Below, piece by piece: positions 12,012 through 38,509 of a stretch of 64,000 nt of DNA (its first letter is position 1; every line of letters starts with the position of its first letter). This stretch comes from an uncultured Acidimicrobiia bacterium. Lineage in GTDB: Bacteria; Actinomycetota; Acidimicrobiia; Spongiisociales; Spongiisociaceae. The stretch covers positions 2,454,548-2,518,547 of the forward strand of contig OY282370.1 in NCBI GenBank assembly GCA_958295745.1. Reading direction: 5' to 3'. Made by a program: the position numbers and the translations under genes. A model generated the notes under the pieces. The model made no database searches. It was not told the DNA's origin and saw nothing but the letters and a program-made list of their open reading frames with translations.

Positions 12012-12713
12012 CGACAGATATCGTTGCCGATCCGGATGGCAGCGATCAACAGCCCGCTCACGGGGCTTCTGGAACTTTTCCGGCGGCAACCCACAGAGGC
12101 GGGCAAACTAGCCGAGCGGCCGAACGAGTCAGGTGCGCCCCGGGCCCACGCGCCCCGCACCGAGAAAGCGTGATTTGGCGGTGGTGGCGGGGGAGGGCTC
12201 CCGGCGAAGCCGGGGAGTGGGCGGCGGAAAGCGCGAAAAATGTTCGCGGTTTCATGGTCGAGCGGTTTCATGACTGGTCTTCCCCGAGGGGGTGTTCGTT
12301 GCCGGCCCGTACCGCAACATCGACTGCACATCCGACGGGTTGAGTTCATGACCGGTCCTCGGGAGTGTTCGTTGCCGGGGTTTCTTCGGGTGGGCGGTGC
12401 AAGTTGGCATGGGAACACAACCCCGATGACAGCGGGCGGGGACCGAAGGCAAGGGGAGATGCCGGGGCGGGTATGAACCTCCCTAACCCGAGCAGGCGCG
12501 AACTTTCTCGACCCTGATCGTTCATGAAGTTCCGGTTTGGGATGGGCCGGGGTGCCGGGTTGCGGGTGTGGGCGTGCCGGGTCCGTCGGGTCTCTGCCGG
12601 GTGTTGCTTCCGACCGGGGGGAGACGCGCCGTTGCGGCCGATGATCCCCGGGTCATGAGGGCTGCTCGACGCTTGCGCCGCCCGCCCGACGCCCCGGCCA
12701 TGAACGATCGTGG
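12012..12713. other. Non-coding spacer with imperfect direct and inverted repeats
   Basis: No convincing gene is seen here. Two related segments starting ttcatgac(t/c)ggtc and ending tgttcgttgccgg lie at 12267-12305 and 12345-12379, an imperfect direct repeat about 78 bp apart. An 11-bp perfect inverted pair, gatcgttcatg and catgaacgatc, lies near 12516 and 12700. Together they suggest decayed mobile-element ends or regulator binding sites, but nothing decisive. Confidence 0.4.
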
Positions 12714-14006
12714 TTATCGGTCGGCCACCTCGATGATCAACTGGGACACCGCGTCAGTCGGTGCCTCTGCGAACGCCGCTCGGGAGGCATCCTCCAATAT
12801 CCGGCGGTCCAGGAAGGTGCCCGCCCTCACCACCCGGCGCACTTCTGACAGGACGGTTATGTCCGAGGTGGGGTCGCCCTCGACCGCCAGCAAGTCGGCG
12901 GCCAGCCCCGCCCGGATCCGGCCGGTGACGCCGCCCAGCCCCAAGGCGTCCGCCGCCGAGGAGGTGGCCGTCGCCAGGGCTGCGCGGGGCGGCATCCCGG
13001 CGTCCACCAGCAGGGCGAGCTCGTCGTGGAGGGAGAACCCGGGCGCCAGGCCCGGCCAGGGTGTGTCCGAGCCGGCGATGATCCGGCAGCCCGACTCGAA
13101 CAACCCGCCCAACGTTTCTTTCATGGCCACCACGCGGGCCTGCCGCGCCAGCCTCTCGGCGGTGTCGGAGGTGCGGTGCGGGAACCGCCGCCATGCCGCC
13201 CGGATGTCCGGGTGGACCCAGCGGGACCGCCGGTCGTTGGCGAAGACCGCGTCGTTGACCCGGCTCAGCCGGTCCCACACCACCAGGGTGGGGCACAGGA
13301 CCACGCCGGACTCCAGGAACGCCGCCGCCCATCGGGAGGTGCGACCGGGATCCGGGGGCCCTGCTCCCTCCACGTGGTGGACGCAGCCGGAGAGGTGCTC
13401 GATCTCCCCGACCCCGGCCGCCGCCGCGGTCTCGGCGTCCACCGCCCCCAGATGGGCGATGACCGCCAGACCCAGCCCCCCGGCCCGCCGGACCGCCTCG
13501 GTGATCTGGTCTTCGGTCAGGTTCACGTACAGCTTGACGGCGTCCACCCCGGCCGCCGCCAGCTCCTCCACCGACCGGGCCACCTCGCGGGTGCCCAGGT
13601 GTCTCCGTCCGATGCTCGGCCAGTTGACCGCCTCCCCGTCCAGTACCGGTCCGCAGCACAGGATCCTCGGGCCAGAGGCCGGGTCGGCGGCGGTGCGGGC
13701 CCGGCGTTCCAGTATCCAGTCGAGCCGGTTGCCCGTGTCCCGCACGGTCGTCACCCCCGCCGCCAGGAAGCCGGGCAGCATCCAGTCGGCCAGATGCACG
13801 TGGCAGTCGATCAGGCCGGGCAGCAGCGTGCATCCGTCCAATCTCGTCACGGCAACCCCGGCCGGTATCCCCGCCGCCGGACACACGCCGACGATCCGCT
13901 CTCCCTCTACGAGGACGGCGCAGGACTCCAAGAGCCGCTCGCCGTCCCAGACCGCATCCGGGGCGAGCGCCCACACGGAGGGTTCCGATCCGGCGGCGTT
14001 TTCCAT
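12714..14006 (-). CDS. Amidohydrolase family protein (imidazolonepropionase/prolidase-like)
   Basis: A 430-residue metal-dependent amidohydrolase. Metal ligands are visible: DCHVHLAD (HxH after strand 1), the likely carboxylated Lys in VDAVKLYV, His in IAHLG, His in IEHLSG and the catalytic Asp in AGSDTPWPG. The short N-terminal beta-sandwich (VLVEGERIVGV...) and the C-terminal return to it (AADLLAVEGDP) are typical. The substrate is unknown, probably an amide, a cyclic amide or a peptide-like ester. It lies 7 nt after the SDR, in a minus-strand run with a phosphotriesterase-like enzyme and a dimethylformamidase-like amidase. Confidence 0.88.
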   Translation of the reverse strand: MENAAGSEPSVWALAPDAVWDGERLLESCAVLVEGERIVGVCPAAGIPAGVAVTRLDGCTLLPGLIDCHVHLADWMLPGFLAAGVTTVRDTGNRLDWILERRARTAADPASGPRILCCGPVLDGEAVNWPSIGRRHLGTREVARSVEELAAAGVDAVKLYVNLTEDQITEAVRRAGGLGLAVIAHLGAVDAETAAAAGVGEIEHLSGCVHHVEGAGPPDPGRTSRWAAAFLESGVVLCPTLVVWDRLSRVNDAVFANDRRSRWVHPDIRAAWRRFPHRTSDTAERLARQARVVAMKETLGGLFESGCRIIAGSDTPWPGLAPGFSLHDELALLVDAGMPPRAALATATSSAADALGLGGVTGRIRAGLAADLLAVEGDPTSDITVLSEVRRVVRAGTFLDRRILEDASRAAFAEAPTDAVSQLIIEVADR

Positions 14007-14013
14007 GGCCGCC

Positions 14014-14790
14014 TCAGTACATGATCGAGCCGCCGCTCACGTTGATCGTGGCGCCGTTGATGAAGCTCGAATGCCGGGAGGCCAGGAAGACGACCACCGC
14101 CGCCAGCTCCTCGGGTTGGCCCATCCGGCCCAGCGGACACATGTCGATCCCCTTCTGGACTATCTCGGGAGTGTTGTCGATGTGCTGCATGGGGGTGTCG
14201 ATCTGGCCGGGAGCGATGGTGTTGACTAGGACGCCGTGCGGGCCGAAGGCCTTGGCGAAGCCGTAGGTCATCGACACCACGCCCGCCTTGGCGGCCACGT
14301 AGGCGTCGCTGCCCAGGAGCGGGCCCACCAGCCAGGCCGTGGAGGAGAAGTTGATGATGCGGCCCCCCTTGCCGCCGGCCGCCATGATGTTTCCCGCCGC
14401 CCGGTTGAGGAAGAACCCCGCCTTCAGGTTGATGTCCAGCTGGTGGTCCCAGTCGTCTTCGGTCACCTCGTCGAGATGCCGGCGGCGCAGGACGGCCGCC
14501 GGATTGGCCAGGGCCCACAGACCGCCGAACCGGGCGGCCACCCCCGACACGAGGTCCGGTATGGCTGCGATGTCGGCTAGGTCGAACGGGGCGGCGAGGT
14601 GCCGGTCCCGGTCGTCGAGCGCCGCCATCGTCTCCGACAGGCCGGCCTCGTTCCGGTCCACCGCCGCCACGCGGGCCCCCGCCGCGGCCATGGCGAGGGC
14701 CGAGGCCCTGCCCACCCCGCGGGCGGCGCCGGTCACGATCACCCCCCGCCCCTCCAACCCGGCGCCCAGGTTCCAGGCCGCCCCGCCCAT
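14014..14790 (-). CDS. Short-chain dehydrogenase/reductase
   Basis: A 258-residue SDR with the TGAARGVG cofactor loop, catalytic Ser in NFSSTAW, the YVAAK active site and the C-terminal FINGATINVSGG. It lacks the usual NNAG motif, having ALANPAAVL instead. That substitution and its overall sequence ally it with the SDR at 2351-3118. The start ATG (14790) shares one base with the end of the phosphotriesterase gene, so the two are translationally coupled. Confidence 0.9.
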   Translation of the reverse strand: MGGAAWNLGAGLEGRGVIVTGAARGVGRASALAMAAAGARVAAVDRNEAGLSETMAALDDRDRHLAAPFDLADIAAIPDLVSGVAARFGGLWALANPAAVLRRRHLDEVTEDDWDHQLDINLKAGFFLNRAAGNIMAAGGKGGRIINFSSTAWLVGPLLGSDAYVAAKAGVVSMTYGFAKAFGPHGVLVNTIAPGQIDTPMQHIDNTPEIVQKGIDMCPLGRMGQPEELAAVVVFLASRHSSFINGATINVSGGSIMY

Positions 14791-24053: not shown

Positions 24054-25403
24054 TTAGAGACCTAGAGCCCTTCGAGTTTCTTCCATAAAAAACTCTCCAT
24101 AGCTAACTGGTGCCCCTATGATGTTACCTTCGTGGTCGTATCTCAGCGAGTGAATGCGGACATCTAGGTCACCGCGTTCAAAGAACAGAATTGATACATC
24201 TTCGGGCTTCAAAGGAGAAGATTTATCACGTATATCCATACGCACACGGTCCAGTATGTAGTCACTGTGCGTCTCTATGATCAGCTGTTTGTTGTCGCCA
24301 GCAACCTGACAGAACAAACTGCCGAGAGCAGCTTGGGCACTGGGGTGTAGATGAACTTCTGGTTGCTGTAACAGAAACATGTCAGGTGCGTCTGTTCTAA
24401 GCAGTTCAGTTATCAGCGGTAGTACCTGGCTGACTCCATAACCAACATCTATCAAATTACGTCGCGGGCCCTTTCGATTATCACTGAACTTCCTAATTTG
24501 GATTTGGAAAGGCCCACCGTACCCTCTTCCTAGTTGCTCTAGCGATAATTCATCGAATAGGCCGGAATTGTGTCCAAAGTCCTCTAGCTTTTCCTGAAGT
24601 TCCTTCCATTCCTCTCTATTTTGAGAGTATAGGTCGGCAAGATACATAGGAACATAATCTCCTTCAGGATCCCGTATTGGACGGGATGGATCATAGGTTC
24701 GCTTAGGCTTGGAGCGAACTGGAGCGCTAGCATAATAGTATGGTCTTTGTTGACTTATATAGAGGTAAGGATATATAAAATTTCTTGACATCTTTATTAT
24801 TTCTTTACAATCTTTATCAGTAAGCTTTGGAGAGTTGGGAGAACTTATAAAGTTTTTCTTTCTGTCTAAAGACCAAGGTCGATCCACATGAAAGTGTAGA
24901 GGAAATAAGCGATCTTCCATACTTAAAATGTCAAGATATCTGTCTGCTGTTTGCTTATATTGCCAATTACCTCGTTCGGTTTTGAGCATGACATCTGTCT
25001 GTGTTTTTCTCAAGGTTTCCCTTATAGAGATATTCCCTTGCGAGAGAGATCGTTCTACAGGGATCGGTATATTACTCTGGTTTTTAAACATAGCCTCAAA
25101 ATAATAAGGGGGAGAATTATCTGATCTAGATATTGGAGTAGTCTCGAATCCTGCTCTAAAACTCTCAGTGGTAGGGCTGTTGCTTCCATGATAGGATATT
25201 TCATCAAAGCTACCTAGGTCATAGGGTTGTTCTTTGAAGTCAGGAACTCGTTGACCGTAGGCAACGTCCCACAGTGCTCGGATCATGGCCATGAAAGAGG
25301 TCTTGCCGGTGCTGTTCTCACCCACTAGAAGAGTGAGCGGTGCCAATCGGACGGTCTGCCTTTCTCTAAAGCAACGGAAGTTTTCAAGCGTGATGCTATC
25401 CAT
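24054..25403 (-). CDS. OLD-like/AAA_15-type ABC ATPase of the defence operon
   Basis: A 449-residue SMC/RecF-like ATPase. The N-terminus (ITLENFRCFRE) and the Walker A motif GENSTGKT (residues 28-35) are typical of AAA_15/AAA_21 proteins. The Walker B region reads MFLLQQPEVHLHPSAQ, with Gln-Gln-Pro-Glu in place of the usual DEPE-type sequence, and is followed by the D-loop/H-loop stretch IIETHSDYIL. A C-terminal TOPRIM domain as in true OLD nucleases is not visible; the downstream PIN gene may supply nuclease activity. The start overlaps the helicase stop (ATGGATAG). Base composition is visibly AT-rich, unlike the first half of the operon. Confidence 0.85.
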   Translation of the reverse strand: MDSITLENFRCFRERQTVRLAPLTLLVGENSTGKTSFMAMIRALWDVAYGQRVPDFKEQPYDLGSFDEISYHGSNSPTTESFRAGFETTPISRSDNSPPYYFEAMFKNQSNIPIPVERSLSQGNISIRETLRKTQTDVMLKTERGNWQYKQTADRYLDILSMEDRLFPLHFHVDRPWSLDRKKNFISSPNSPKLTDKDCKEIIKMSRNFIYPYLYISQQRPYYYASAPVRSKPKRTYDPSRPIRDPEGDYVPMYLADLYSQNREEWKELQEKLEDFGHNSGLFDELSLEQLGRGYGGPFQIQIRKFSDNRKGPRRNLIDVGYGVSQVLPLITELLRTDAPDMFLLQQPEVHLHPSAQAALGSLFCQVAGDNKQLIIETHSDYILDRVRMDIRDKSSPLKPEDVSILFFERGDLDVRIHSLRYDHEGNIIGAPVSYGEFFMEETRRALGL

Positions 25404-28400
25404 TGTTCCTTCTCTCGTTCTCTCGGGATGGAGTTGGCACTCCGAACAGGTCGGGATATTTCTCTACCTGCTCGGTGAACGGTCGGTCGTGTCTTATGGC
25501 CACCACTCGGTAGCCGTAGTCCTGCAACCGGGCGCGGCGTTGCTCGTCGGTTTCTCGTTGGCGGGGTTCGTCGTGGTGGGGGCCGTCTACGAACACGCAT
25601 ACGCCGGGCCGCTTTTCGCGATCGTAGTAGAAGTCGGGTTGTACGGGTAGATCCGCAACCGGGCGGTTCTGGGCTTTGTCCGGGAGGCGTAGGCCGTTGT
25701 CGTAGAGGAAGCGCAGGAAGTTCCGCTCCAGCGCCGAGTGGGGATCTACCAAGCCCAGTAGGTGCTGGTAGTGCCGGTCGTTGTCCCTTTCTCCTTCCTG
25801 GACGGTTTCCGCGTGCGCGAGGCGGCGCAGGAAGTCCGGGAGGAGCCGCCGGTCGATGTAGCGGTGGTACGGCTGGTTCGAGTAGGAGAGCAGGCATTCG
25901 TAGCAGGCCACGGCGCACTTCGCAGGGCCGCCTCCCACCTTGCCGCCGTCTGAGGGGTCGTAATGGCAGAGCCGCAGGGCCCGCTCCGCCACCCGCCCGA
26001 GGGCTTCCCGTTCAACGGCCAGGCGTTCCCACACGCCGATTCCGCCTTCGGCCGCCTCCCAGAACAGCAGTCGACGGTGATCGCCCCGTCCGATCAGCTC
26101 TGCTCCGATCTCCTGTTCCTCCACCTGGTATTCGACCTGGATGGCCCGCTTGAAGGCGTAGAGGAGGGTATGGAGAAACTCCTCCGACGGCTGATCGGCC
26201 AGGGGCCTGATCATGAGTATGTTCCGCGTGTCCTGCACGTAGGGCATGATTCCCGTGATCGGCCGGGGTGCGTCCGGCTGTTGGCCGGCCTCTCCGCCTT
26301 GGTCGGCGGCGCGGCCCTGCCATCGCCCGGTACGGGGGTCGATGGCGAATCCGGTTTGTTCGCTCCGCCGCCAGCCCTGATTGATCCGCCATAGCTTCGC
26401 GGCGGGCGCGTGTACGACCTCCAGCAGGCAGTCACCCTCCGAGAACACCTCGGCCTGCAGGGGATGGACGCCGAAGCGGAAGTGCGTTGTGGTGAGGTAT
26501 CCGCTCCGAACCCGTTCCTCCTCTTCGGAGGAGATCCGCTCGAAGGGCCTCGCCCTCATCATGGGTTGTTTCAGCAGGCGTTGCGGGAACTGTGCGTTCT
26601 CGGCGTCCAGGCGGGTGCCGCAGTGCTCGCACATGTCCACCCCCAAAGAGGCCCCGGTGTGCGCACGTCCACACACGTTGCAGAGGCGCGCCTGCTCCAG
26701 ATGCTCCTCGACGCCTTCCGTAGGCAGCACCGCGTACTGCACCCGATGCTTCCGACCCTCGTGGTAGATCTGGTTGCTCGGCCCGAACTCCGTGAGCCCC
26801 AGAAAGCGGGGGCGGTCGATGAGCTGCCTGCCGCCCCGCACCGGCACCGAGACCCGCACCGGCAGCCGCGGGAAGTTGTATCCGGGCAGGAACCCCTCCC
26901 CGGCCAGGTAGCGGTAGGGGTAGAAGTCCGACTCGGAATGGTGTTTGGTCCGGTTGAGCAGAAGCCGGATCTCACGGCGGGCTTCCTTTTCCCGGCGCTC
27001 CGCTTCCTCATGATCCTTCGAGCCGGCGTTGGGGTCGTCGATCAGGTGCCGCGCCTCGTCCCGCAGCCTGCACGTCGAACGGTAGAGATCGCGCCAGTGG
27101 TCGAAAGCCCGGTCGAATTGATCGGGCGCGGTACGCAGCGTTTCTTCGAGCCATCCTTGCGAGAACCACTGCGCCTTGTGGATGTCCTGCGTCCGCTTCG
27201 CGATCCGCCGCCCCCGATGCAAGGCTTCCTCGATGACCCGTTTACCCGCCGCCCCCGTGATGGCGGCCTGCTTGTCCGCCGCTATCGGCAGGCCGGGAGC
27301 TCCGAGGTCGAGTATCTCGGTCATGCTGTTGCCCAGGGACATACCGCTCGTTGCCAGCCAGGTGGAGTGCAGGTGGGCTCGCACCAGATCCTCGTTCTCG
27401 AGGTCGATCCGGGCCGGGGCGACCGCTCCGGCGATCATCTCACCGCGCCTCCCGAAGAAGTATTGATCGTGGGCGTTCCCCTGCGCGGCGAAGGCCACGA
27501 TCAACGCCGGTTGACCGCCCCGCCCCGCCCGTCCGCTCCGCTGCGCGTAGTTGGCCGGAGTGGGCGGCACGTTGCGCAGATGGACCGTATGGAGGTCCCG
27601 TATGTCAACCCCCAGCTCCATGGTGGGCGAGCAGAACAGCGCCGGCAGCTCGCCGTTCCTGAACCGGTCTTCCCGTTCGCTCCGGATGTCGGCGGCGATC
27701 TGCCCGGTGTGCTCCGCCGCCGCCATCCCCCGCAGATGCCGCCCCTGGTTCTGGTAGAGGTTGGTGAAGTAGGAGTTGGCCTCCTGTATCCCGGGCAGTT
27801 CCCTCCGCAGGTGGAGCGACCTGCTCCTCACCGGATCGGGCGGGGCCGGGCCGCCGCCGCCCGCCGCCCAGCGCATCGCCCCGGCCAGCACGCGGACGCC
27901 CCCGTCCTGGTTCCTCTGGTCGGCCGCCGCCGCCGCCAGGAGATGGCCCCGCAGCCTTTCGACGACGCCCTCCACCAGGAATTCTGACTCGTCGGCGGCC
28001 ATGGTCCGGTCGGTGTTCCATGTGGTGGGGGAGCGCAGATAGCGGGCGACGGCGGAGCGCCGCCCCAGGCTCATCGTCCTGCGCCTCGAATATCGGTTCG
28101 CCTGCACCCCCGGCAGCAGGGCCATGCTCTGCGTCCGCGGGCGGTCCAGGTCCTCCAGACGCCAGGGATCCCGCAGCCACTGATCGGTGTTGCGGATCAG
28201 TCGGCGGGCGGCGGCTTCGGTCAACGGCGGGGCATCGACGGCCAGCCCCATGCGCAGATGGTCGAGAAAGGCGTGCAGCACCCTTCGGCGGGTTGCCGCA
28301 GAGGCATCGGAGATAGCCGGCAGGGCGTCCCATAAACTGTGATCGGCGGCGAGGTCGTCCAGCCCCGCATACTCGATTCGGAGCAGCCCGGTTTGTTCCA

Positions 28401-30543
28401 GGTTGGGTTGGGTGATCCTCCAATCGCGGCTCAGATCCTCCAAGGCGCGGTATTCGAGCAGGTCCACCATGGCCCGCCTGCCCTGCTCGTATCCGGGTCC
28501 CCCGGCCACCGACTCCCGCAGGAAGTCGCCCGGTTCGAGGTCGAGCGCCTCGAACACCGCCGGCCCGAGCCGGTCGAAAGTCAGGGTCCCGTTGCGCCGG
28601 ACGGCTTCGACCAGCCCGGCGCGCAGCTGGGCGACCTGCACAAAGTCGTTCAGATGCCCGGATTGGAGCGAGGCGTCCTGCCGGTTGTCGGTGAAGCTGA
28701 GGGACTTCGCCTCGGTGCGGTCCAGGTCCTGGTTCGCCATGCCCGCCACGGCCGCATTCATGGATATGGTCGTCGCGGTCGATCTTCCCGTCTGGCTGAG
28801 GGAGGAGAGCTTGCGGTAGTCGCCCACCCGAGTGTCGTACACGGCCCGGCAGCGCAGGCAGATCAGGAACTTGTGCGGCAGGAACCAGCCTTCCACTCCC
28901 GAACCGTCCGGCGGGTCGAGGCTTCCGTCGGGGGCGGCGCAGTACTCTTGAGGCCGGTACTGCCCGTAGTTCGGTTTGATGACCCTTCCGGCTTTCCGCT
29001 CGTTGAACCAGAACTCCGGCAGGTCGTTGTCGTCGCCCGCCCAGAGTTCGTCGTGCTCGACGGCGAAGTAGCCCTTTATGTCATCGAGGTCTTCCTCCGA
29101 GACGCCCGCCAGAGGAGAACGGGGTATCAGCCGTTCTGCCCCGTCTTCCTCGGTAAGCGACGCCAGGTAGTACTCCTGGCCGCATTCCCGGCAGAAGGCC
29201 AGCGGGTAGAGCACCCGTTCGCCGTCCGCCTTGTACTGGCCAGACATGCTGAACTCGCGGGCGTCCGGCGCCTCAAGAGTGGCGTAAACGCTGCTCCCCG
29301 ACGAGAGCCACTGGTGGAGGCGAAAGGCGAACAGGGGCCGCCCGGCGCTCCGCCCGGCCTCGTTGCCGGCTTCGAGCACGCTCCGAAGCGGTGTCCGGCA
29401 CTGCTTGACCGCCAGGCCGCTCTCCTCAGCCAGCCGCTGGGCCACGTCCTCGAAGGTTTCGGGCCGCCGCCGGACCCACCGACCGTCTTTCTGTTCCAGG
29501 CCGAAGGCTTCCTCGGCCCAGGCCGCCAGGGGATGCCCGCGCACCGCTTCGGCCTCCGGCGCGGGTGCGGGCGCCTCCACCGCCGCCCGGATATCTTCCT
29601 TTTCTGTGGGCGCCGCCGGTATCGAGGTGACCCGTTCGAGGGTTTCGTCCACCACGTTGGCGGCGGGGATGTCCAGCCCGAAGAACTTCGACACGAGCTC
29701 GGACACGGCCTCGTTGCGCTCCGCTCTGGACCCGCCGGTGACCATGGTTGCGCTGGTGGCCACCGCTTGGAGATCGCGCCCGGCTGTCTCCTGGAGCCGG
29801 CGGGTGAGCATCGCCGTGTCCGCCCCCTGCCGCCCTCGATAGAAGTGCAGCTCGTCCATCACCAAGGTTCGCAGGTCCCGGGTGGCGGTCTCGAGGAGCG
29901 GCCTTTCGCCGGGGCGCAGGAGCATGTACTCGGCCATCACGTAGTTGGTGAGCAGGATGTGCGGCGGGTCGGCGAGGATGCGCTCGCGGTCCTCCTGGCG
30001 ATCCTGGCCGGTGAAACGGGCGAAGCGCACGGGCGAACCGGGGAAGTTGTCCCGCTGGTAGTTCTCGAGAGCTTCGATCTGGCTGTTGATGAGGGCGTTC
30101 ATCGGATAGATCAAGAGCGCCCGCACTGTGTGCCGCTCCGGTTCGTTCCTGAGGATGTTGTCGTAGATCGGCGCCAGGTAGGTGAGGCTCTTGCCCGACC
30201 CGGTGCCGGTCGTGACGACGTACGGTTCGCCGCGCAGGGCGAGGTCGATGGCCTGGCGCTGATGCCGGAAGAGCCGCAGACCCTCGCCGAAGAAACGGGC
30301 GGTGTTGTGCATCAACACTCCGTCGCCGGCCATCTCCCCGAGGGTGCGGTCCATCTCAAAGGCGGGGTTGAGCTGGAGTACGGCCTCCGGCCAGAGGGCG
30401 CCCTCTTTCAGCCGGCGGTCGATGTAGCCGTGGATACGCTCGTCGAACACCCGCACGAAGCTGCGGACGTAGCTTTGATACTCATCGACCACCTGCTTGC
30501 GAAGCTCGAAGACATCCAACGGCATTGGTTGCGGCTCACTCAT
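25396..30543 (-). CDS. DEAD/DEAH helicase-DUF1998-(Vsr/DUF559-like nuclease) fusion, DrmA/DrmB- or DruE-like
   Basis: A 1715-residue defence helicase. Domains in order: DEAD/DEAH core with Walker A TGTGSGKS (112-119) and DELH (230-233); helicase C-terminal domain with motif VI QRSGRAGRG (about 999-1007); a zinc cluster, CNVCG...CEHCG (about 1284-1306); a DUF1998/MZB motif, CAVACYECLLSYSNQ (about 1541-1555); then a C-terminal PD-(D/E)XK-like domain with QPDFYY, VFVDGPHH and YGYRVVAIRHD (about 1635-1685), resembling Vsr/DUF559. In DISARM the helicase (DrmA) and DUF1998 (DrmB) proteins are separate. Here they are joined, with an added nuclease-like end. It overlaps the genes on both sides by 8 nt. 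YprA-like or Druantia DruE-like affinity is the alternative reading. Confidence 0.85.
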   Translation of the reverse strand: MSEPQPMPLDVFELRKQVVDEYQSYVRSFVRVFDERIHGYIDRRLKEGALWPEAVLQLNPAFEMDRTLGEMAGDGVLMHNTARFFGEGLRLFRHQRQAIDLALRGEPYVVTTGTGSGKSLTYLAPIYDNILRNEPERHTVRALLIYPMNALINSQIEALENYQRDNFPGSPVRFARFTGQDRQEDRERILADPPHILLTNYVMAEYMLLRPGERPLLETATRDLRTLVMDELHFYRGRQGADTAMLTRRLQETAGRDLQAVATSATMVTGGSRAERNEAVSELVSKFFGLDIPAANVVDETLERVTSIPAAPTEKEDIRAAVEAPAPAPEAEAVRGHPLAAWAEEAFGLEQKDGRWVRRRPETFEDVAQRLAEESGLAVKQCRTPLRSVLEAGNEAGRSAGRPLFAFRLHQWLSSGSSVYATLEAPDAREFSMSGQYKADGERVLYPLAFCRECGQEYYLASLTEEDGAERLIPRSPLAGVSEEDLDDIKGYFAVEHDELWAGDDNDLPEFWFNERKAGRVIKPNYGQYRPQEYCAAPDGSLDPPDGSGVEGWFLPHKFLICLRCRAVYDTRVGDYRKLSSLSQTGRSTATTISMNAAVAGMANQDLDRTEAKSLSFTDNRQDASLQSGHLNDFVQVAQLRAGLVEAVRRNGTLTFDRLGPAVFEALDLEPGDFLRESVAGGPGYEQGRRAMVDLLEYRALEDLSRDWRITQPNLEQTGLLRIEYAGLDDLAADHSLWDALPAISDASAATRRRVLHAFLDHLRMGLAVDAPPLTEAAARRLIRNTDQWLRDPWRLEDLDRPRTQSMALLPGVQANRYSRRRTMSLGRRSAVARYLRSPTTWNTDRTMAADESEFLVEGVVERLRGHLLAAAAADQRNQDGGVRVLAGAMRWAAGGGGPAPPDPVRSRSLHLRRELPGIQEANSYFTNLYQNQGRHLRGMAAAEHTGQIAADIRSEREDRFRNGELPALFCSPTMELGVDIRDLHTVHLRNVPPTPANYAQRSGRAGRGGQPALIVAFAAQGNAHDQYFFGRRGEMIAGAVAPARIDLENEDLVRAHLHSTWLATSGMSLGNSMTEILDLGAPGLPIAADKQAAITGAAGKRVIEEALHRGRRIAKRTQDIHKAQWFSQGWLEETLRTAPDQFDRAFDHWRDLYRSTCRLRDEARHLIDDPNAGSKDHEEAERREKEARREIRLLLNRTKHHSESDFYPYRYLAGEGFLPGYNFPRLPVRVSVPVRGGRQLIDRPRFLGLTEFGPSNQIYHEGRKHRVQYAVLPTEGVEEHLEQARLCNVCGRAHTGASLGVDMCEHCGTRLDAENAQFPQRLLKQPMMRARPFERISSEEEERVRSGYLTTTHFRFGVHPLQAEVFSEGDCLLEVVHAPAAKLWRINQGWRRSEQTGFAIDPRTGRWQGRAADQGGEAGQQPDAPRPITGIMPYVQDTRNILMIRPLADQPSEEFLHTLLYAFKRAIQVEYQVEEQEIGAELIGRGDHRRLLFWEAAEGGIGVWERLAVEREALGRVAERALRLCHYDPSDGGKVGGGPAKCAVACYECLLSYSNQPYHRYIDRRLLPDFLRRLAHAETVQEGERDNDRHYQHLLGLVDPHSALERNFLRFLYDNGLRLPDKAQNRPVADLPVQPDFYYDREKRPGVCVFVDGPHHDEPRQRETDEQRRARLQDYGYRVVAIRHDRPFTEQVEKYPDLFGVPTPSRENERRNNG

Positions 30544-31201
30544 TGCTCAGGTCCGGCAGTTCCCCGCGCGCCATCTGGTCATACGCCGCAAGCACATAGC
30601 GCTGGGTCCGGTACTCGCCGAACTCTTTCATCTCTTTGCGCTTGAGGGTAGGGAAGGACGCACTCGGAGGCGGAGCATCAAGGATCCATTCGAGATCCTC
30701 GCGCTCCAGACGGTACATATGGGCGTAGATGGCGTCCAATTCACTCTTGAGTTTATGACGCCGTTCATCGTCCCAAATGAAGGGAGGTCCTTCGTAACCC
30801 AGATCCCTGGCGAACGGTTCCAGGTCATGGGCTGTATACGTCAGCTCCAAGACGCGAGGTACGATCAGCTCTACATACTTCAGTCCCAGGCAAGCTTCTT
30901 CCAAGTATGTCTCCGGAGGGAGGATGGGGAGCTGTTTTATGATAAAGAAGTTGAGGTTTGTCCCACCCACCGAGAGGCGAGCTGCCCAGTCCAGGGGAAG
31001 GCTGTTCATATTGGCTAAAACAAGGGTGGAAGCTACTACTTTAGCTTGTTTATAGTATATCAATGAAGAACTGTGTCCAACGGCACTCAGAGGAATATTT
31101 TCAACTAGGGTAGTACGCTCATTAGTAGCATTTGTGATATTCCTGTAAGCTTGAAGCCAGCGTTCGGAGTCAATATGGAGTAAGGGTGCCTTGTTGCTCA
31201 C
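30536..31201 (-). CDS. C-terminal (target-recognition) part of the DrmMI-like methyltransferase, separated by frameshift
   Basis: A 221-residue reading frame that is not a free-standing gene by origin. It contains ITNATNERTTLVENIP, LVLANMNSLPLDWAARL and FFIIKQLPILPP, which are C-terminal landmarks of Eco57I-class methyltransferases. Its frame runs open upstream without a stop through the GATCC tract, reading NWLIAFRDITNATNQRTT just before this start. It is displaced from the catalytic part by the present repeat number. The GTG at 31201 has aggagg 7 nt upstream, and the N-terminal part stops at 31213, so it can be restarted as a separate subunit. It overlaps the helicase start (ATGAGTGA). Confidence 0.82.
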   Translation of the reverse strand: MSNKAPLLHIDSERWLQAYRNITNATNERTTLVENIPLSAVGHSSSLIYYKQAKVVASTLVLANMNSLPLDWAARLSVGGTNLNFFIIKQLPILPPETYLEEACLGLKYVELIVPRVLELTYTAHDLEPFARDLGYEGPPFIWDDERRHKLKSELDAIYAHMYRLEREDLEWILDAPPPSASFPTLKRKEMKEFGEYRTQRYVLAAYDQMARGELPDLSNE

Positions 31202-31212
31202 AGCAGTTCCTC

Positions 31213-34200
31213 CTAAGGTCGCGACGATAGTGGTTCGTTGATTGGTTGCATTTGTGATATCTCGGAAGGCAATGAGCCAATTATAATGGTTATTCCCGAT
31301 TCGCCTATGCCTAAGAGAGGGATCATTGCTGCTATTCCGGTTCGGAGATTCGTTGAACTGGCGATACGCCTGATATTGAGATGAGCGCCAGTCGGGTGAG
31401 GACTTGTAGCGTCTGTCCCCTGTCCCCGATCCGATCCGATCCGATCCGATCCGATCCGATCCGATCCGATCCGATCCGATCCGATCCGATCCGATCCGAT
31501 CCGATCCGATCCGATCCGATCCGATCCGATCCGATCCGATCCGATGGTGGTAGTATGACCCGTTACGGCTTTGTTTAGTTTGGTCATCACCTCATTCTCA
31601 GGTACCCAGTAGCGTGGAAGTGGTAAGGTATGAGGGTTGGCCTTTTCATTGGAGGGAATAGTTTGAGCATTACCTTTCAATAAATCCTTGGGAGATGATT
31701 CAGCAAAGGTAGCAAATCTGTGGTCATACTGGTGGAATAGCTTGGCCTCATACAAAGGTAGATATAGTTCTTCACCACGTATAAATATATTGCCTCTTAG
31801 TTCCCAACCGTCTTCAGTTAACTGCTGGTGAGTACGGAATAGATAGGAGGCGGTGTTCATCATGAACATAAGCTGAAATTTAACACCCCAAGGATTTGAC
31901 TCGGGCTGATCATCTGAAAGTTCTCTCCAGAATACTCCAGCATATTGGTACATCTTGCGGGCGATTTCCATGTCCTTTTGGGTTCGGAAGAGGGGACAGG
32001 TACGAGTGTTAGGGTTGAAAAGGGCAAAGTCCTCAGAGGATAGAAAAAATCGTCGCTCGGAGTCCTGTAATTGTTCGGTGTGGTGTAGGAAAAAGGCAAA
32101 CTCACCTTGTGCGCTTGGTCTATCAATCCCGCTCAATGTAAGAAGGCAAAACTTCAGTCGGCCATCTATACCAGGAAAAACCTTCCTTTTGTTCTCAAAG
32201 TCGTACAGGCTGACCAAGGCCCTATGATCTATAAGATCAGCAAAAAAATACTGGTTGAATGAATCGGTAGCTATACCTGTAGGTACTATAATCCCAGCTT
32301 TGCCTCTTGGGTGCTGTAGATCTTTGGAGTGTTCGGCAAAGAGAGGTGCATAGTTCAATCGGCCATAGCTGGTCTTTGGGAATCGGCCGGATGAATGGAT
32401 GAACTTCTGAGTGGCTTTCATTTCTCTTACTGCAACTTGATACTCGAGATAGAGGCCAGGATTGGTCGAAGCTAAGCGTTGGATTGCACGGTTCCGGGCT
32501 GCCATGTTGGGTTGGTTTGCTACATCGGGGTCGCTGGTCGCGAAGAACTCTCGCGGGTCCAGTTGGACTTGGTCCCACGGCGGGTTGCCCAGTACTACGT
32601 CGAACCCGCCGTCCTTGAAACACACGTCAGGGAACTCAAGAGGCCAATGGAAGTAGGGGTAGTCTCTAGATGCTTGGTGGGCCCTGTCCTCGAGTTGTGA
32701 TCCTGTATTCTGCCCATTGCGGGCGCGACGGATATCGTCAGTGGTGGGTACACGATCATGTTCCTCTGTTTCAAAGGATTCACGCGGAGCAAAGAATGCA
32801 TAGGTCCATAGATCACAGGCTACCTTAAACCTGCGTAGGACTTCCGAATTTTGTAGCTCCCTGTATTCTTTCTCCATCTTTTTGACATCGGCAGCGCTAC
32901 GTTCTGCTCTCCTTCCAAAGTTGGCAAAATCATCTGCCATTTTTTGGGTGTCTAACGGAGGCGGTTCCGAAGTCAGACGCTGTTGGCCGGTGCGCTCCTT
33001 CTTGTTGCGCTTGCGATACCATTTGGCCGCTTCCTTGTCGTCTCCGGTTACCGGCTTGTAGGCGGCGTCGGGAATGCCCTCTTTGAGGACATCGAGGTCC
33101 ATCACCCCCACCAGGCTGTCACCGCACTTGACATGGTGGTCGAGAAAGCCGAGCGGCAGGCCCACCGTGTGACACTCGATCCACAGGGCCACCTTGCACA
33201 GGTCCACGGCCAGTGGGTTCTTGTCCACCGCATAGATGCAGTGCCGTACCACGGTGCGGAGGGCGCGGCGGTAGTCAAGGGGGGAGGGCTCTTCGCCCCC
33301 CGCCCGGATCTTGGCCAGCTCGCGGGCGATGCGGCGGGCGGCGGCCAGCAGGAAGTGGCCGGAGCCGGAGGCGGGGTCGCACACCCGGAGGTCCAAGAGC
33401 GCCTGCACTTTCTTGATCCTTGTATCGGCTGCGGCCAACCGTTCTTCCATGACCGGGACCAGGGCGCTGTCCACCAGCTCGCGCACCAGCTCCGGCGGCG
33501 TGTAGTAGGAGCCGGTCTCCTTGCGCTGGGTGCCGGCGGCTAGGTCGAAGCTGGGCGGGCTGCCGGATACCTCGCCCACATCCAGAACCGGCCGATAGTC
33601 CAGCAGGCTCTCGTAGACCGAGCCGAACTCCTCCACATCCAGCGCGGCGTAGTTCACCCTCCGCCTGACTCCGCCGTCGTGGAACGTCGACAGTGACCGC
33701 ATTACCGTGAGCAGCGTCTCGTTGGAGCAGTGCGCGGTTTCGATGCGGCTGCAGGCCTGCTCGCCGAACAGCTCGCCGTTCAGGGGGGACAGGTTCAGGT
33801 GTCGGGCGGCGGCCTCGTCCCGGCAGAGGCGGAAGGTCTCGGCGAGGCCCGCCCAGAGGTCTCCATGATTGTCGCCCGCGAAGTAGTGCTCGGCGCGTTC
33901 CCGCAGCCGCGTGACGCTGTAGTAGCGGTCGTAGATGGTCTGCCCGGTGCTCGGTTCAATGAAGAGGAGCTTGCGTTCCTCCGCCACCATCAGGAACAGC
34001 ATCCGGTAGACGAAGTTGAGCAGCTGCCGGTAGTAGCCGGTCTCGTCGAGGGTTCCGCCGCGGAGGGCGCGGCGCAGGGTCCCGTTGCCGGGATGCGAGA
34101 CGAGGGCCCTGCCCAGCACTTCGAGCGCGCTCTTGACGCCGTGGCGGAGCTTCTCCCTGACCCGGCCGCCCTCCTCTATCCCCTGGTTGTAGTAGTTCTC

Positions 34201-34866
34201 CAGCAGGCATTCGTGCGGCTCGATCTCCCCGAGTGGGAACCTGGTCGAGTGCATGAGGCGGTAGAGAACGACGAACTCGCGGTAGTCGTTGCCATCGATC
34301 ATGGCCCGCAGGTCGAACTCCAGGTAGGTGGGCTTGGAAAGCCGGGCGCTGTCCCGCAGCAGGCGTAGATGGGTGCCGTTGGTTGTCACCCCCCACAGGG
34401 CCTCGGACCGGTTGAGGAAGTCCTGAACCTGGGTGTGAGGGCTGCGCCGGTTCCGGGTGCCTCGGTCGTCGAGACCCTGGTCCAGCGTCACGATATGGAT
34501 AGGGACGGCGTTCTCGCCGCCGCCGACGCGGTGCGAAATGATGAACTGAGACCCTCCTGCCTCGACGGCCGCCCGCTGGTATTTGAGGGGCGGGAACCCG
34601 AGCAGCTCGAAGAACTTGGCGGCCCAGTCCTGCCGGGTGAGGGTGGTGCGGCTCTCCTGTGATCGGTTTAGCCGCCTGTTGAAAGCGTCCCAGTAGACCC
34701 GCGAGTCGGAGAAGGCTCTTTGGATCTCCTCGGTCAGGCTCCTGTTGCGGGGCAGTCTGAAATCGGCGGCGCGCTGTCCTTCGATATCGGTGTCGCCCTC
34801 GCCGATCCGTTCGATCAGATCGGATGGGAAGAAGCCGCCCTCGATGTCGATGGTCGCGTAGGCCAT
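31213..34866 (-). CDS. Eco57I-class DNA adenine methyltransferase (DrmMI-like), catalytic part, interrupted by a phase-variation tract
   Basis: A 1217-residue product in the present frame. Motif I is DPASGSGHF (about 497-505) and motif IV is NPPW (about 761-764), as in N6-adenine methyltransferases. The N-terminal 450 residues form the helical region common to DISARM/BREX-type enzymes. The conserved PRYWVPE stands at about 1085, then residues 1108-1147 are eight IGSDR pentapeptides encoded by (GATCC)24. The last 70 residues are a frame-shifted tail. With 23 or 26 copies it would continue into the 30536-31201 frame, giving about 1441-1446 residues. It starts 3 nt after the SNF2 gene. Expected role: marking self DNA for the operon. 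Confidence 0.88.
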   Translation of the reverse strand: MAYATIDIEGGFFPSDLIERIGEGDTDIEGQRAADFRLPRNRSLTEEIQRAFSDSRVYWDAFNRRLNRSQESRTTLTRQDWAAKFFELLGFPPLKYQRAAVEAGGSQFIISHRVGGGENAVPIHIVTLDQGLDDRGTRNRRSPHTQVQDFLNRSEALWGVTTNGTHLRLLRDSARLSKPTYLEFDLRAMIDGNDYREFVVLYRLMHSTRFPLGEIEPHECLLENYYNQGIEEGGRVREKLRHGVKSALEVLGRALVSHPGNGTLRRALRGGTLDETGYYRQLLNFVYRMLFLMVAEERKLLFIEPSTGQTIYDRYYSVTRLRERAEHYFAGDNHGDLWAGLAETFRLCRDEAAARHLNLSPLNGELFGEQACSRIETAHCSNETLLTVMRSLSTFHDGGVRRRVNYAALDVEEFGSVYESLLDYRPVLDVGEVSGSPPSFDLAAGTQRKETGSYYTPPELVRELVDSALVPVMEERLAAADTRIKKVQALLDLRVCDPASGSGHFLLAAARRIARELAKIRAGGEEPSPLDYRRALRTVVRHCIYAVDKNPLAVDLCKVALWIECHTVGLPLGFLDHHVKCGDSLVGVMDLDVLKEGIPDAAYKPVTGDDKEAAKWYRKRNKKERTGQQRLTSEPPPLDTQKMADDFANFGRRAERSAADVKKMEKEYRELQNSEVLRRFKVACDLWTYAFFAPRESFETEEHDRVPTTDDIRRARNGQNTGSQLEDRAHQASRDYPYFHWPLEFPDVCFKDGGFDVVLGNPPWDQVQLDPREFFATSDPDVANQPNMAARNRAIQRLASTNPGLYLEYQVAVREMKATQKFIHSSGRFPKTSYGRLNYAPLFAEHSKDLQHPRGKAGIIVPTGIATDSFNQYFFADLIDHRALVSLYDFENKRKVFPGIDGRLKFCLLTLSGIDRPSAQGEFAFFLHHTEQLQDSERRFFLSSEDFALFNPNTRTCPLFRTQKDMEIARKMYQYAGVFWRELSDDQPESNPWGVKFQLMFMMNTASYLFRTHQQLTEDGWELRGNIFIRGEELYLPLYEAKLFHQYDHRFATFAESSPKDLLKGNAQTIPSNEKANPHTLPLPRYWVPENEVMTKLNKAVTGHTTTIGSDRIGSDRIGSDRIGSDRIGSDRIGSDRIGSDRIGSDRGQGTDATSPHPTGAHLNIRRIASSTNLRTGIAAMIPLLGIGESGITIIIGSLPSEISQMQPINEPLSSRP
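31426..31545. repeat. Pentanucleotide simple-sequence repeat, (GATCC)24
   Basis: Twenty-four uninterrupted copies of CCGAT/GATCC (120 bp), inside the methyltransferase gene between its catalytic and recognition parts. The unit length is not a multiple of 3, and neither strand has a stop in any frame of the repeat. On the coding strand all three frames give the same IGSDR-type pentapeptide. Slipped-strand changes would therefore switch the downstream frame. The tract is rich in GATC. Confidence 0.97.
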
Positions 34867-34869
34867 GGT

Positions 34870-37737
34870 TCAGTTTCCCGCCGGAACTAGGACGTAACAG
34901 CCGATGATGTCGGGCGGTCGGTGCGGTTTCACGGCCGCCTCCGCCCCGTCGACGACGCTACGGAGCCGTTCGTGGGCGCCCTGCAAGGCGGCCGCCCGCT
35001 CGTTGACGATGCCGTCGCACCAGCCGTCTCCCTCGAGCATACCCAGCGCCCACCTGACCTGTTCCTCCCGCTCTCCGGGTGCCATGTTGACAGCCGGTTC
35101 GGCCTCCGCCAGCAGACGCAGGCCGTCTTTTTCGAGCCGGACCAGCCGCCCGATGTCGTAGGGGTGGCGCCGGAACGCCCCGACCACCACTTCCTCGGCG
35201 AACTGCCGGCCGCTCCGATCTTCTATGAGGTAGCGGAGCCGGAGCACTAGGACGATCGTCCGGTAGCCGACCGCATCGGTGACGATCGCGCCCGCCCTGG
35301 CGAACCGGTTGTCGTCGCCTTCCAAGGCCTTGGCGAGCACGGCTTCGGACAGCGCGGCCACCGCCGGATGGTTGCGCCCCAGCGTGGTCGCGCCCCGGCG
35401 CGGGATATCGTCGAAGGCCGCGCTCATGGGGAAGCTGATTTCGGGGGCGCGGGCGGCGATGCGGTCCCGCAGGTCGCCGGCATGCAGCCGGTATACGCCC
35501 TCGGTGTTCGTTCCGCGGAGCTCACCGTTGAAGCGCTGGACGGCGTTGGCGACGAACCGTTTCACGTCCTTGGCGCTCCCCAGCACCGGTTCCATCTCTT
35601 CCAGCTCGCGGGCCACGTCGTCGGGCTCGATCCCGCGCTGGGCGAAGTAGGCCCGCGTCTTGGTCTCCCTTTCCGCCATCTGCTCCCAGGCCTCGTGCAG
35701 CCTGCTCACCGATTCGTCCTCCAAAGCGAGCCGGAACTGCTGGGCTTGGCCGTCCCCCCGCAGCAGGACGCTGTTGATCAAGGTGTTGATTACCTGTTCG
35801 GACTCGACCGGCACCGGCACCGAGATGCCGAGGCTCCGGCGGATGGTCTGCGCCTTCTTGAGGAGCACCTTCAGCACCACGAGGTCCATCTCGTTGTCGG
35901 ACCCGTAGAGCAGCACCGTCTTGATCACGTCCCTGTCCTGTCCGAAGCGGTCCACCCGGCCTTCCCGCTGTTCCAACCGGTTGGGGTTCCAGGGGAGGTC
36001 GTAATGCAGCACCGCGTCGTAGTGTTCCTGGAGGTTCACCCCTTCACTCAGGCAGTCCGTGGCGACCAGCACCCGCACCGGTTCTTGCGCTAGGCCCAGC
36101 ACGATCTCTCTGCGCTGCTCGCTGTCGCCTTCATTCCCGGTAACCGCCTTCACCGACAGGCCTGGATGGGTCTTTGCCAGCGTCTTCTGGAGATGCTTGG
36201 CTGCGTAGTAGGCGGTTTGGATGTAGCGGCAGTAGACGATGGGGCGGTAGCCCCCGGTTAGCAGGTCGGAGACTGCGGCGGCGGCCGCGGATATCTTCGC
36301 GTCCTGCTCCGGGCCGTCCAGTTCCTTTGCCCGTTCCAGGAAGTTGTTCAGCTCGCGTATGTCGGTTGCGTCGAGGCCGGCTTCGGGATCGTCCAGGGCC
36401 GCGGTGGACACGTAGTCGGTGGGATGCTCTTCGTCTGCGGAGTCCAGTATCTGCCGCCCGAAGTCCTCGTCGCTGGCCCCGTCCCCGTTCTGCGCCGCAG
36501 TCGAGGTCTCGGACTGCTTGCGGTTCTCGAGCACCGCCCTCGCCGCGCCGGGGCTGGAGAGCACGCACCGCAGGATCGACAACGCCGCCCAGTAACGAAC
36601 CCGCCTCCGTTGGCTGGCCTCCTCCGGGGTGGACACGTATTCCTGGCAGTATTCCAGGATGTTCCTGTAGAGCAGGTGGTATCCCGTGGACATCTGGTAG
36701 GTGCGTTCGATGGATTCCCGTTCGGGGAAGGGGGTGTCCACTTCCAGCCAGCGCTGTAGGTCGGACCGCTTGCGTTGCACGAAGTGCGGGACCAGCCGGG
36801 AGCGGGGCAGCCTCGACTCACCGGGCGCGTCGAAGGAGGGGTCCAGAAGGCCCAGCAGCGATCTGAAGTTCTCTTCTACGCCGCTGTGAGGGGTGGCAGT
36901 CACCAGGAGGATGTGCCGGTCGGTTTTCTGGGCGAGCTCCTTCACTAGGGCGTAGCGCTGCTGTTGCCTGCCCTGTTTACCGCCGCGGGGCCGCGAAGAG
37001 GTGTGGGCTTCGTCCACGATGATGAGGTCGGGGGCGTAGTTCAGGAACGGCCCGCGGTTGCGTTCCAGCTTTACGAAGTCGATGCTGACCACGAGATGGC
37101 TGTAGTGCTGGTAGAGGGAGATGTTCTGGAGCGGCAGTCCCCGTTCCAGCCGCCCGATCCGGGACGACTGGACGACCGCCGCTTTTATGTTGAACTTGGT
37201 CCGCAGTTCCTCCTGCCATTGCTCGCACAGGTGGGGGGCGCATAGGACGCCGATGCGGCGCACCACCCCCCGGTCGAGCAGCTCGCGGGCGATCATGGCG
37301 GCTTCGATGGTCTTGCCCACGCCCACGTCGTCGGCGATCAGCAGGCGCACCGGATTCTGCCGCAGGGCCATGATCAGAGGCACGAACTGGTAGGGCCGCG
37401 GGGTGACCGACAGCCGCCCCATCGAGCGGAACGGGCCCGCGCCGCTCCGAAGCCCGAGCCGCACAGCGTCGCGCAACAACAGCGCCCCGGTGAAGTCGCC
37501 GGCCCGCTCCGGGTCGGGCGGGGAGTACTCGGAGGGTTTGATGGCGTCCGGTTCCAACGGAAGGTATATCCCGATCGCCTCGGCGTCCGGGCCGTCGACA
37601 GGACGCAGCCGGACGGCGGCCTGCTCATCAGGGTCGGGAGGCAGTACCACCCAGTTCCGACCCCGGGCGCTCACCAACGCCCCGGGAGGGAAGTCGATCG
37701 TAGAGCCTTGAGGGTGTCTGAGCCCGATGTATGCCAT
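34870..37737 (-). CDS. SNF2-family helicase of the defence operon (DrmD-like)
   Basis: A 955-residue SNF2-like DNA translocase. Walker A region DDVGVGKT (about 136-143), DEAH box IIVDEAHTS (about 240-248), and helicase C domain with VLVATDCLSEGVNLQ and REGRVDRFGQ. The long C-terminal helical region fits the DrmD/RapA-type family found upstream of the methyltransferase in class 1 DISARM. It is separated from the methyltransferase gene by 3 nt. GC-rich like the surrounding chromosome, unlike the distal ATPase-PIN genes. Probably DNA translocation or remodelling during recognition of unmodified invader DNA, by analogy with DISARM. Confidence 0.88.
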   Translation of the reverse strand: MAYIGLRHPQGSTIDFPPGALVSARGRNWVVLPPDPDEQAAVRLRPVDGPDAEAIGIYLPLEPDAIKPSEYSPPDPERAGDFTGALLLRDAVRLGLRSGAGPFRSMGRLSVTPRPYQFVPLIMALRQNPVRLLIADDVGVGKTIEAAMIARELLDRGVVRRIGVLCAPHLCEQWQEELRTKFNIKAAVVQSSRIGRLERGLPLQNISLYQHYSHLVVSIDFVKLERNRGPFLNYAPDLIIVDEAHTSSRPRGGKQGRQQQRYALVKELAQKTDRHILLVTATPHSGVEENFRSLLGLLDPSFDAPGESRLPRSRLVPHFVQRKRSDLQRWLEVDTPFPERESIERTYQMSTGYHLLYRNILEYCQEYVSTPEEASQRRRVRYWAALSILRCVLSSPGAARAVLENRKQSETSTAAQNGDGASDEDFGRQILDSADEEHPTDYVSTAALDDPEAGLDATDIRELNNFLERAKELDGPEQDAKISAAAAAVSDLLTGGYRPIVYCRYIQTAYYAAKHLQKTLAKTHPGLSVKAVTGNEGDSEQRREIVLGLAQEPVRVLVATDCLSEGVNLQEHYDAVLHYDLPWNPNRLEQREGRVDRFGQDRDVIKTVLLYGSDNEMDLVVLKVLLKKAQTIRRSLGISVPVPVESEQVINTLINSVLLRGDGQAQQFRLALEDESVSRLHEAWEQMAERETKTRAYFAQRGIEPDDVARELEEMEPVLGSAKDVKRFVANAVQRFNGELRGTNTEGVYRLHAGDLRDRIAARAPEISFPMSAAFDDIPRRGATTLGRNHPAVAALSEAVLAKALEGDDNRFARAGAIVTDAVGYRTIVLVLRLRYLIEDRSGRQFAEEVVVGAFRRHPYDIGRLVRLEKDGLRLLAEAEPAVNMAPGEREEQVRWALGMLEGDGWCDGIVNERAAALQGAHERLRSVVDGAEAAVKPHRPPDIIGCYVLVPAGN

Positions 37738-37852: not shown

Positions 37853-38509
37853 TTATACCTCGACCGCGGCTATTTCTTGTGGGGCGGACCCGGTTCCGGC
37901 GGGCACCGGCTCGGCGGGTCGGAAAGAGGCAGGTCGGTCATCGGCCAGGATGTTCAGGCGGTCCTTGACTACAGCCATATCGATCTGCAGGTATCGCACC
38001 CGATCATCCACCACACTGAGACCGTTCTCGATCTTGGTCGTGCGATCTTTGACGGTGGCCATATCCAATTGCAGATTCTGTATTCCATTTTCCCCCACAC
38101 CGAGGCGGCCTTCGGCGCTGGTGAGGCGGTTCTCGACTTTGGTGAGGCGGTTCTCGACTTTGGTGAGGCGGTCTTCGACTTTGGTGAGGCGGTCTTCGAC
38201 TTTGGTGAGGCGGTCTTCGACTTTGGTGAGGCGGTCTTCGACTTTGGTGAGGCGGTCTTCGACTTTGGTGAGGCGGTTCTCGACTTTGGTGAGGCGGTCC
38301 TTGACGATGGCAAGCTCCGCCTGCAGGTTGCTTACGCCTTCTTCGACTTTGGTGAGGCGGTCCGCCAGCCCCTGTATCTGTAGCTGCAGGAGAGCGATCG
38401 ACTGCTGTACCGCCTTCTGGTTGGCCGCGTTGAGCCGCCACATGACCACGGACAGGGCTGCGAACAGCCCGGCGGTGAGGTAGAGGTTGTTCAGGAAGTC
38501 GGGGTTCAC
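37853..38509 (-). CDS. Membrane-anchored coiled-coil protein with tandem heptads
   Basis: A 218-residue protein of unknown function. An N-terminal hydrophobic segment (LYLTAGLFAALSVVMW, about residues 8-23) is followed by a continuous coiled coil whose middle is nearly perfect RLTKVE(D/N) heptads. It starts with GTG at 38509, supported by aaggag 8-9 nt upstream. It lies 115 nt upstream of the SNF2 gene on the same strand and could be the first gene of the defence operon. It has the same design as the pair at 3240-4332 (one membrane helix plus 21-bp-repeat coiled coil) but a different sequence. Confidence 0.7.
   Translation of the reverse strand: MNPDFLNNLYLTAGLFAALSVVMWRLNAANQKAVQQSIALLQLQIQGLADRLTKVEEGVSNLQAELAIVKDRLTKVENRLTKVEDRLTKVEDRLTKVEDRLTKVEDRLTKVEDRLTKVENRLTKVENRLTSAEGRLGVGENGIQNLQLDMATVKDRTTKIENGLSVVDDRVRYLQIDMAVVKDRLNILADDRPASFRPAEPVPAGTGSAPQEIAAVEV
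38130..38297 (-). repeat. 21-bp in-frame tandem repeat (8 units)
   Basis: Eight consecutive 21-bp units (t(t/c)ttcgactttggtgaggcgg-type on the + strand) differing at one or two positions. The period is seven codons, so copy-number changes would keep the frame and alter coiled-coil length. It encodes RLTKVED/N heptads. Confidence 0.92.

Follow-up and report, generated by a model that had tools for sequence, protein, structure and literature searches.

The methyltransferase locus and its repeat tract

The window (the whole stretch of 64,000 nucleotides analysed here, from an uncultured Acidimicrobiia bacterium) carries on its minus strand a methyltransferase gene placed between two helicase genes, with an ATPase gene directly downstream (Table 1). 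Profile matches identify the N-terminal part of the methyltransferase as ArmB/DrmMI/PglX-like, with an Eco57I fold. On the coding strand, its last conserved segment ahead of the repeat is followed after 42 nt by a (GATCC)24 tract.

Table 1. Features of the methyltransferase locus. Positions refer to the window unless another locus is named.
Feature	Position	Strand	Remarks
AAA_15 ATPase, directly downstream	24054..25403	-	profile match; candidate member of the system
YprA/DruE-like DEAD helicase, ArmC position	25396..30543	-	DruE 1.6e-88; MrfA Zn-binding DUF1998 (PF09369)
Methyltransferase C-terminal part, 221 aa, with module 3 (31046-31159)	30536..31201	-	continuous with the N-terminal part at 23 or 26 copies
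Module 2, frame B, WLIAFRDITNATNQRTTIVATLGGTAVSNKAPLLHID	31169..31279	-	overlaps end of frame A
GTG, putative internal start of C-terminal part	31199..31201	-	start codon in 14/14 repeat-bearing homologues
AGGAGG	31209..31214	-	strong anti-SD pairing, -9.9, top 2% of background ATG/GTG positions
Methyltransferase N-terminal part, 24-copy reading, 1217 aa, including module 1 (frame A)	31213..34866	-	DrmMI 5.6e-85, Eco57I 2.1e-17
Module 1, frame A, HLNIRRIASSTNLRTGIAAMIPLLGIGESG...	31270..31383	-	42% identity to G006, residues 1158-1216
(GATCC)24 simple sequence repeat	31426..31545	-	coding strand (IGSDR)8; unique in genome
PRYWVPENEV, last conserved segment ahead of the repeat	31588..31617	-	conserved in homologue alignments
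SNF2/RapA-like helicase, ArmA position	34870..37737	-	PADLOC DpdE 1.5e-190, DrmD 2.5e-91, BrxHI/HII 7.6e-63
Methyltransferase with 4-base-unit tract, L160 (G000:C1:2270001-2290000)	13683-14171
Methyltransferase with 4-base-unit tract, L163 (G000:C1:2680001-2700000)	8596-8702

Tandem Repeats Finder returns 24.0 perfect copies of the 5-base unit, the number that the initial annotation had counted between the PRYWVPE segment and the C-terminal part. As also claimed there, the tract is free of stops in all three frames, which read IGSDR, SDRIG or RIGSD. With 24 copies the N-terminal ORF is closed by a TAG at 31213, which overlaps the AGGAGG sequence and lies 14 nt upstream of the GTG at 31201; all of the numbers given in the initial annotation hold.

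Computed first stops depend on the copy number. With 20, 23, 26 or 29 copies the protein has 1436-1451 aa and ends in GELPDLSNE. The 23- and 26-copy products, both fused, reach 1441 and 1446 aa, in agreement with the fused enzyme of about 1441 aa expected initially. With 21, 24 or 27 copies the product (1212, 1217 or 1222 aa) ends in INEPLSSRP, and with 22, 25 or 28 copies an earlier stop leaves 1174, 1179 or 1184 aa. Long, perfect, non-triplet, stop-free and frame-changing downstream, the tract has the sequence characteristics of an SSR-mediated phase-variable gene.

It is the only SSR of at least 18 bp within the window, and the 20-base pattern (GATCC)4 is confined to it in the genome. In 800 kb of stretches from the same genome, taken as the SSR background, the other tracts of at least 28 bp lie in two other methyltransferase genes (described below), apart from one (CT)14 and one 9-base repeat. 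The (CT)14 tract (L156 15495-15522, near G000:C1:1915495) lies within or next to a short ORF that has no Pfam match. The window also contains 21-bp in-frame tandem repeats unrelated to the switch (38102-38299 and 3400-4280), the former encoding LTKVEDR heptads in a coiled-coil-like gene.

Classification of the system

ARMADA associates a Druantia-related YprA-like helicase, a BrxHII/RapA-like helicase and a PglX-like methyltransferase (Bell et al. 2025, PMC12458937). That paper reports experimental phage protection. The window holds the same three components as type I ARMADA, in the reversed gene order described for some type I systems, without ArmD (PMC12458937). Its YprA-like helicase is nearer to Druantia DruE than to DISARM (DruE models 1.6e-88 to 6.5e-59 versus DrmA 3.9e-11), includes DEAD, Helicase_C and MZB/DUF1998 domains, and starts 8 nt inside the end of the methyltransferase gene. 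The operon also includes the BrxHII/RapA-like SNF2 helicase gene and the PglX-like methyltransferase (DrmMI match in Table 1; the predicted fold of the homologue L067 is nearest to BrxX/PglX). The GajB-like helicase and RelE-like fusion that follow the YprA gene in type II ARMADA are absent; the next genes encode the AAA_15 ATPase and a PIN protein, and the system is therefore considered as type I-like. Regarding DISARM class 1, neither a PLD gene (DrmC) nor DrmB was found in the eight neighbouring proteins scanned, and the helicase is DruE-like. The initial annotation had called the enzyme DISARM-like: the relationship to DISARM stands, but judged by its helicase and by DrmA, DrmB and PLD content the system is classified as ARMADA rather than DISARM proper. 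In two plasmid loci of Thermus and Allomeiothermus (L050 and L052), brxL lies directly upstream of ARMADA-like helicase-methyltransferase-helicase genes.

Repeat tracts at the same site across phyla

Using the region just before the tract as query, about 85,000 species genomes were scanned and yielded 80 homologous loci (L054-L133). A simple repeat is found at the same point, right after PRYWVPExEVxxRLDK, in 22 of the 80. The units are pentamers (AGCCG, GCACA, TCGGG), tetramers (ACCG, AGGC, CAGA, AGCC, CGAC, GACC, ACAG, CAGG), 7-mers, 8-mers, poly-G and poly-C, and a relative of the same family, G006, carries (GA)17. Unit lengths are therefore 1, 2 (G006), 4, 5, 7 or 8, never 3 or 6, and none of them preserves the frame. 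According to record titles and the tree, the carriers belong to Acidobacteriota, Chloroflexota, Pseudomonadota, Gemmatimonadota, Rhodothermota, Verrucomicrobiota and Bacteroidota, together with a Thorarchaeota MAG. Tracts of at least 24 bp are about 118-fold enriched at the site (21 in 17.0 kb, versus 12 in the remaining 1,149.7 kb of these loci). A tract is lacking in the homologues outside the repeat set, such as those of Thermus, Meiothermus and Streptomyces. No relative was found in the viral contigs and phage collection scanned.

Four loci with 91-94% identical N-side DNA (L061, L062, L063 and L069) carry units ACCG, ACCG, AGGC and AGCC respectively, which indicates that the tract is quickly replaced while its place is kept. 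In two MAGs labelled Pseudomonadales and Gemmatimonadetes (L064 and L068), the DNA of the ArmB genes is 91% identical over 796 bases, up to the tract and into it. This fits a recent transfer between phyla, or mis-binning.

Frame-staggered modules and a conserved internal start codon

As a correction to the initial annotation, the recognition part is not simply cut in two by the tract. Instead, a short module of 35 aa (the "ITNATNERT" type) is duplicated behind it in different reading frames. Between RYWV and LANLNSLxxDY, repeat-less enzymes have a single WLLGFRDITNATNERTVIASLLPRVGVGHTLPLL-type segment, while repeat-bearing genes contain two or three divergent copies that are not all in one frame. 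Frame A includes module 1; its end follows about 70 codons further on, at or near the internal start codon. Frame B includes modules 2 and 3 followed by the C-terminal part. Frame C is open for about 28-30 codons behind the tract; in the two-module-frame versions its stop falls at -124 to -136. In the window, a degenerate ITNATN module occupies the present 24-copy frame and two further modules lie in frame B (Table 1), an arrangement that the initial annotation had missed. All three frames carry a module in L076, L082 and L093. In a Bryobacterales copy (L058, ~11560-12070), about 0.5 kb of unrelated DNA lies between modules 2 and 3 and breaks frame B.

The distance between the end of the tract and the internal start is 209-224 nt in most genes, 234 in L074 and 306-309 in the three-module versions; the larger distance in L071 is due to an N gap within the repeat. 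The internal-start column holds a start codon in 14 of 14 repeat-bearing genes (8 GTG, 5 ATG and 1 TTG), versus 15 of 46 repeat-less homologues (Fisher p 4.5e-6; as the homologues are related, this and the other statistics given here overstate independence). Adjoining columns hold one in at most 1 of 14, and GTG represents just 27% of the valine codons in the C-terminal parts. The first stop of the adjoining frame is at +1, as a TGA overlapping the GTG or ATG, in 10 of 13. The claim of a restart is based on the start codon itself, since this overlap is partly automatic (S or N after GTG or ATG makes TGA). A good Shine-Dalgarno sequence is present in the window and in L058, and a weak one in several other genes.

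Selection, phases and phylogeny

In the module-1 stretch of eight genes, variability at codon positions 3, 1 and 2 of frame A is 0.50, 0.37 and 0.19. In the C-terminal part of the same number of genes, the frame B values are 0.60, 0.37 and 0.28. Amino-acid sequence therefore matters in frame A first and then in frame B. Frame B is open over module 1 in 9 of 9 genes, with a joint chance of about 1e-5 if the genes were independent and near 0.003 (our estimate) after thinning of relatives; for single genes this openness is only moderately unlikely by chance (mostly 0.15-0.64). That frame A is open over module 2 could well be due to chance.

The phases differ among the genes. The split phase (A) is found in the window, G006, L069, L079 and L082, the fused phase in L067, whose tract is (CAGA)30, phase C in L058, L062 and L074, and a middle-module phase in L076 and L093. 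L063 and L071, whose tracts contain N gaps, and L068, which has an additional indel, were left out. Each species is represented by one assembly, and the differences in length, unit and phase are thus differences between species. It had been stated at the outset that a break shared by tractless homologues, with no continuous ones, would speak against a switch; the opposite is observed, as L067 is fused through its tract and tractless homologues are continuous, with a single module where readable.

In the N-side tree, the window and L054 stand apart from a clade of 20 repeat-bearing members. In the C-side tree, the window falls inside the repeat clade. The AU test rejects neither a single N-side clade (p 0.257) nor an L082+L093 clade (p 0.12), and weakly rejects the grouping of all 24 (p 0.03). 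These topologies suggest transfer of a C-terminal cassette between methyltransferase backbones, or multiple origins.

Predicted structures

The AlphaFold2 model of the fused form in L067 is a confident fold (pLDDT 86, pTM 0.82). The tract is helical, residues 702-785, including module 2, are disordered, and module 3 is well folded. Among solved structures, this model is closest to BrxX/PglX-DNA, CamA-DNA, M.BseCI and MmeI. The alignments span almost the full length, which leads us to infer a position of the switch within the DNA-recognition half. In a model of state A in L069, module 1 shows a similar three-strand pattern (strands 689-693, 706-709 and 718-723) with low confidence (pLDDT ~45-58), so that any role of it in the split form is putative.

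A second methyltransferase family with the same design

The genome of the window encodes two more methyltransferases of the same design. They belong to a different family and have PLD-SNF2 helicase partners (L160 and L163, Table 1). Their tracts are made of 4-base units, uninterrupted up to 177 bp. Another module (RPYAELHSTxDRHRFILD) is duplicated in different frames, and the TGA stop of frame A overlaps the ATG opening the C-terminal part (ATGA). Genes of this family with tracts are also found in the relatives G012, G006, G004, G115 and G014. Variability at codon positions 3, 1 and 2 is 0.62, 0.27 and 0.17 in frame A, then 0.66, 0.32 and 0.25 in frame B. In one G006 copy (L195, G006:C68:21500-29000), a (GA)15 tract at 4002-4031 is followed by three modules, one per frame. 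The tract lies before, not after, the PVYxGxSF motif, and we therefore consider that this family acquired the design independently.

A probable reading-frame selector in ArmB

The tract probably corresponds to a slippage-prone reading-frame selector in the ArmB of ARMADA, giving fused, split and short forms. Gain or loss of 5-bp units would pick one of the three frames behind it. In frame B (23 or 26 copies) the catalytic part would be continued by a long flexible linker, followed by modules 2 and 3 with the remainder of the recognition domain, in a one-piece enzyme. In frame A (the present 24 copies) the protein would end after its own module copy and, as a ribosome-binding site and a GTG accompany the stop, the C-terminal part would be produced by coupled restart as a separate subunit of a two-piece enzyme. 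Frame C would stop early and leave an N-terminal piece only, an OFF or reduced state. Changes of frame may thereby alter DNA recognition or the defence state. Such a toggle between fused, split and truncated enzymes had been proposed from the window alone. It is now strongly supported by the site, layout, start codon and phases of the homologues, with slippage in living cells as the presumed driving step. A more specific reading, in which the repeat length selects among frame-specific divergent recognition modules and is not merely an ON/OFF device, and in which the cassette had at least two origins (ArmB and the PLD-SNF2-paired methyltransferase), is put forward tentatively.

A plain ON/OFF switch, in which the fused frame (23 or 26 copies) alone would be active, both other frames would be OFF and no use would be made of the internal start, appears unlikely. 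It is the way in which the type IIG enzyme Cj0031 of Campylobacter works, with a poly-G between conserved domains (PMC4889913), and it would agree with a frame B open in all homologues examined and with a fused model that folds confidently. However, frame A is under amino-acid selection, also in the second family, and keeps its module copy, and the start codon is kept at one column. Pure OFF frames would conserve neither, which disfavours this explanation.

Comparative data largely refute the idea that the repeat expanded in a dying gene and that the split form is a functionless pseudogene state. The same site, the staggered layout and selection are retained in many phyla, the neighbouring helicase genes are intact, and N-side identity with homologues from other phyla reaches 63%. 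Decay is thus very improbable here, although the phase of the window is frameshifted relative to the C-terminal part and damaged copies exist: that of D. radiodurans R1 plasmid MP1 (L051 6781-11306) combines an in-frame stop with truncation by an IS630 (ISDra3) insertion, and the ArmB copy of G112 is interrupted. It is also hardly credible that the tract or its length is an error of assembly. Homologous contigs do break at the tract (nine end inside or just after it), and L063 and L071 have N gaps, but the perfect 120-bp tract of the window lies within a 3.0-Mb contig, and long tracts of other units occupy the same site in independent chromosome-level records (L058, L067, L076 and L082).

The frame selector proposed here for ArmB resembles several described systems. 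In the type I system NgoAV of Neisseria gonorrhoeae, a repeat in the specificity gene toggles between a truncated or split and a fused protein that differ in recognition (PMC9577141). That repeat is a poly-G in hsdS, without staggered duplicated module, and the second part is reportedly inactive alone, whereas the tract of the window lies in an ARMADA methyltransferase, with many repeat units across phyla. Cj0031 of Campylobacter jejuni is described as an ON/OFF case, with no conserved restart or frame-staggered modules, and its poly-G is absent from the other homologues compared (PMC4889913). Late tracts in Helicobacter canadensis alter the C-terminus, and one such tract could join two adjacent coding sequences or keep them apart (PMC2823697). 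They are homopolymers of one species which mostly change a few terminal residues, and no comparative evidence points to selection on their alternative frames. Tract-split type IIG enzymes, split or fused specificity proteins and C-terminal phase variation are thus already known (PMC4889913, PMC9577141, PMC2823697). The ARMADA paper (PMC12458937) mentions neither phase variation nor a frameshifted methyltransferase ("phase vari" and "frameshift" have 0 occurrences in its text). Our literature search found no report of such a switch in ARMADA. As far as the literature was searched, this switch, its conservation across phyla with changing units, the staggered modules and the conserved putative restart are new.

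Most known cases of phase variation concern surface genes and restriction enzymes in host-adapted pathogens. If the proposed selector operates, a hypermutable switch resides within a broad antiphage system of environmental bacteria from many phyla, often sponge-associated according to sample names, and of an archaeal MAG. This switch would be kept at one site while its repeat unit keeps being replaced, with overlapping reading frames serving as alternative protein endings. It would provide a testable answer to how a population keeps its defence diversity without losing the system. Under the tentative module-selection reading, the three such genes in the genome of the window would allow up to 27 combinations of defence and methylation states.

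The tract would also explain why assemblies of these genes break off at one and the same codon, and the design has therefore probably been overlooked. In G006, the end of contig C89 (L020/L046) carries a second frame-shifted duplication (NPWGV...F.MANDA.LF.T) upstream of PLYEAKLFHQYDHR, and the contig break at this duplication is possibly another switch point.
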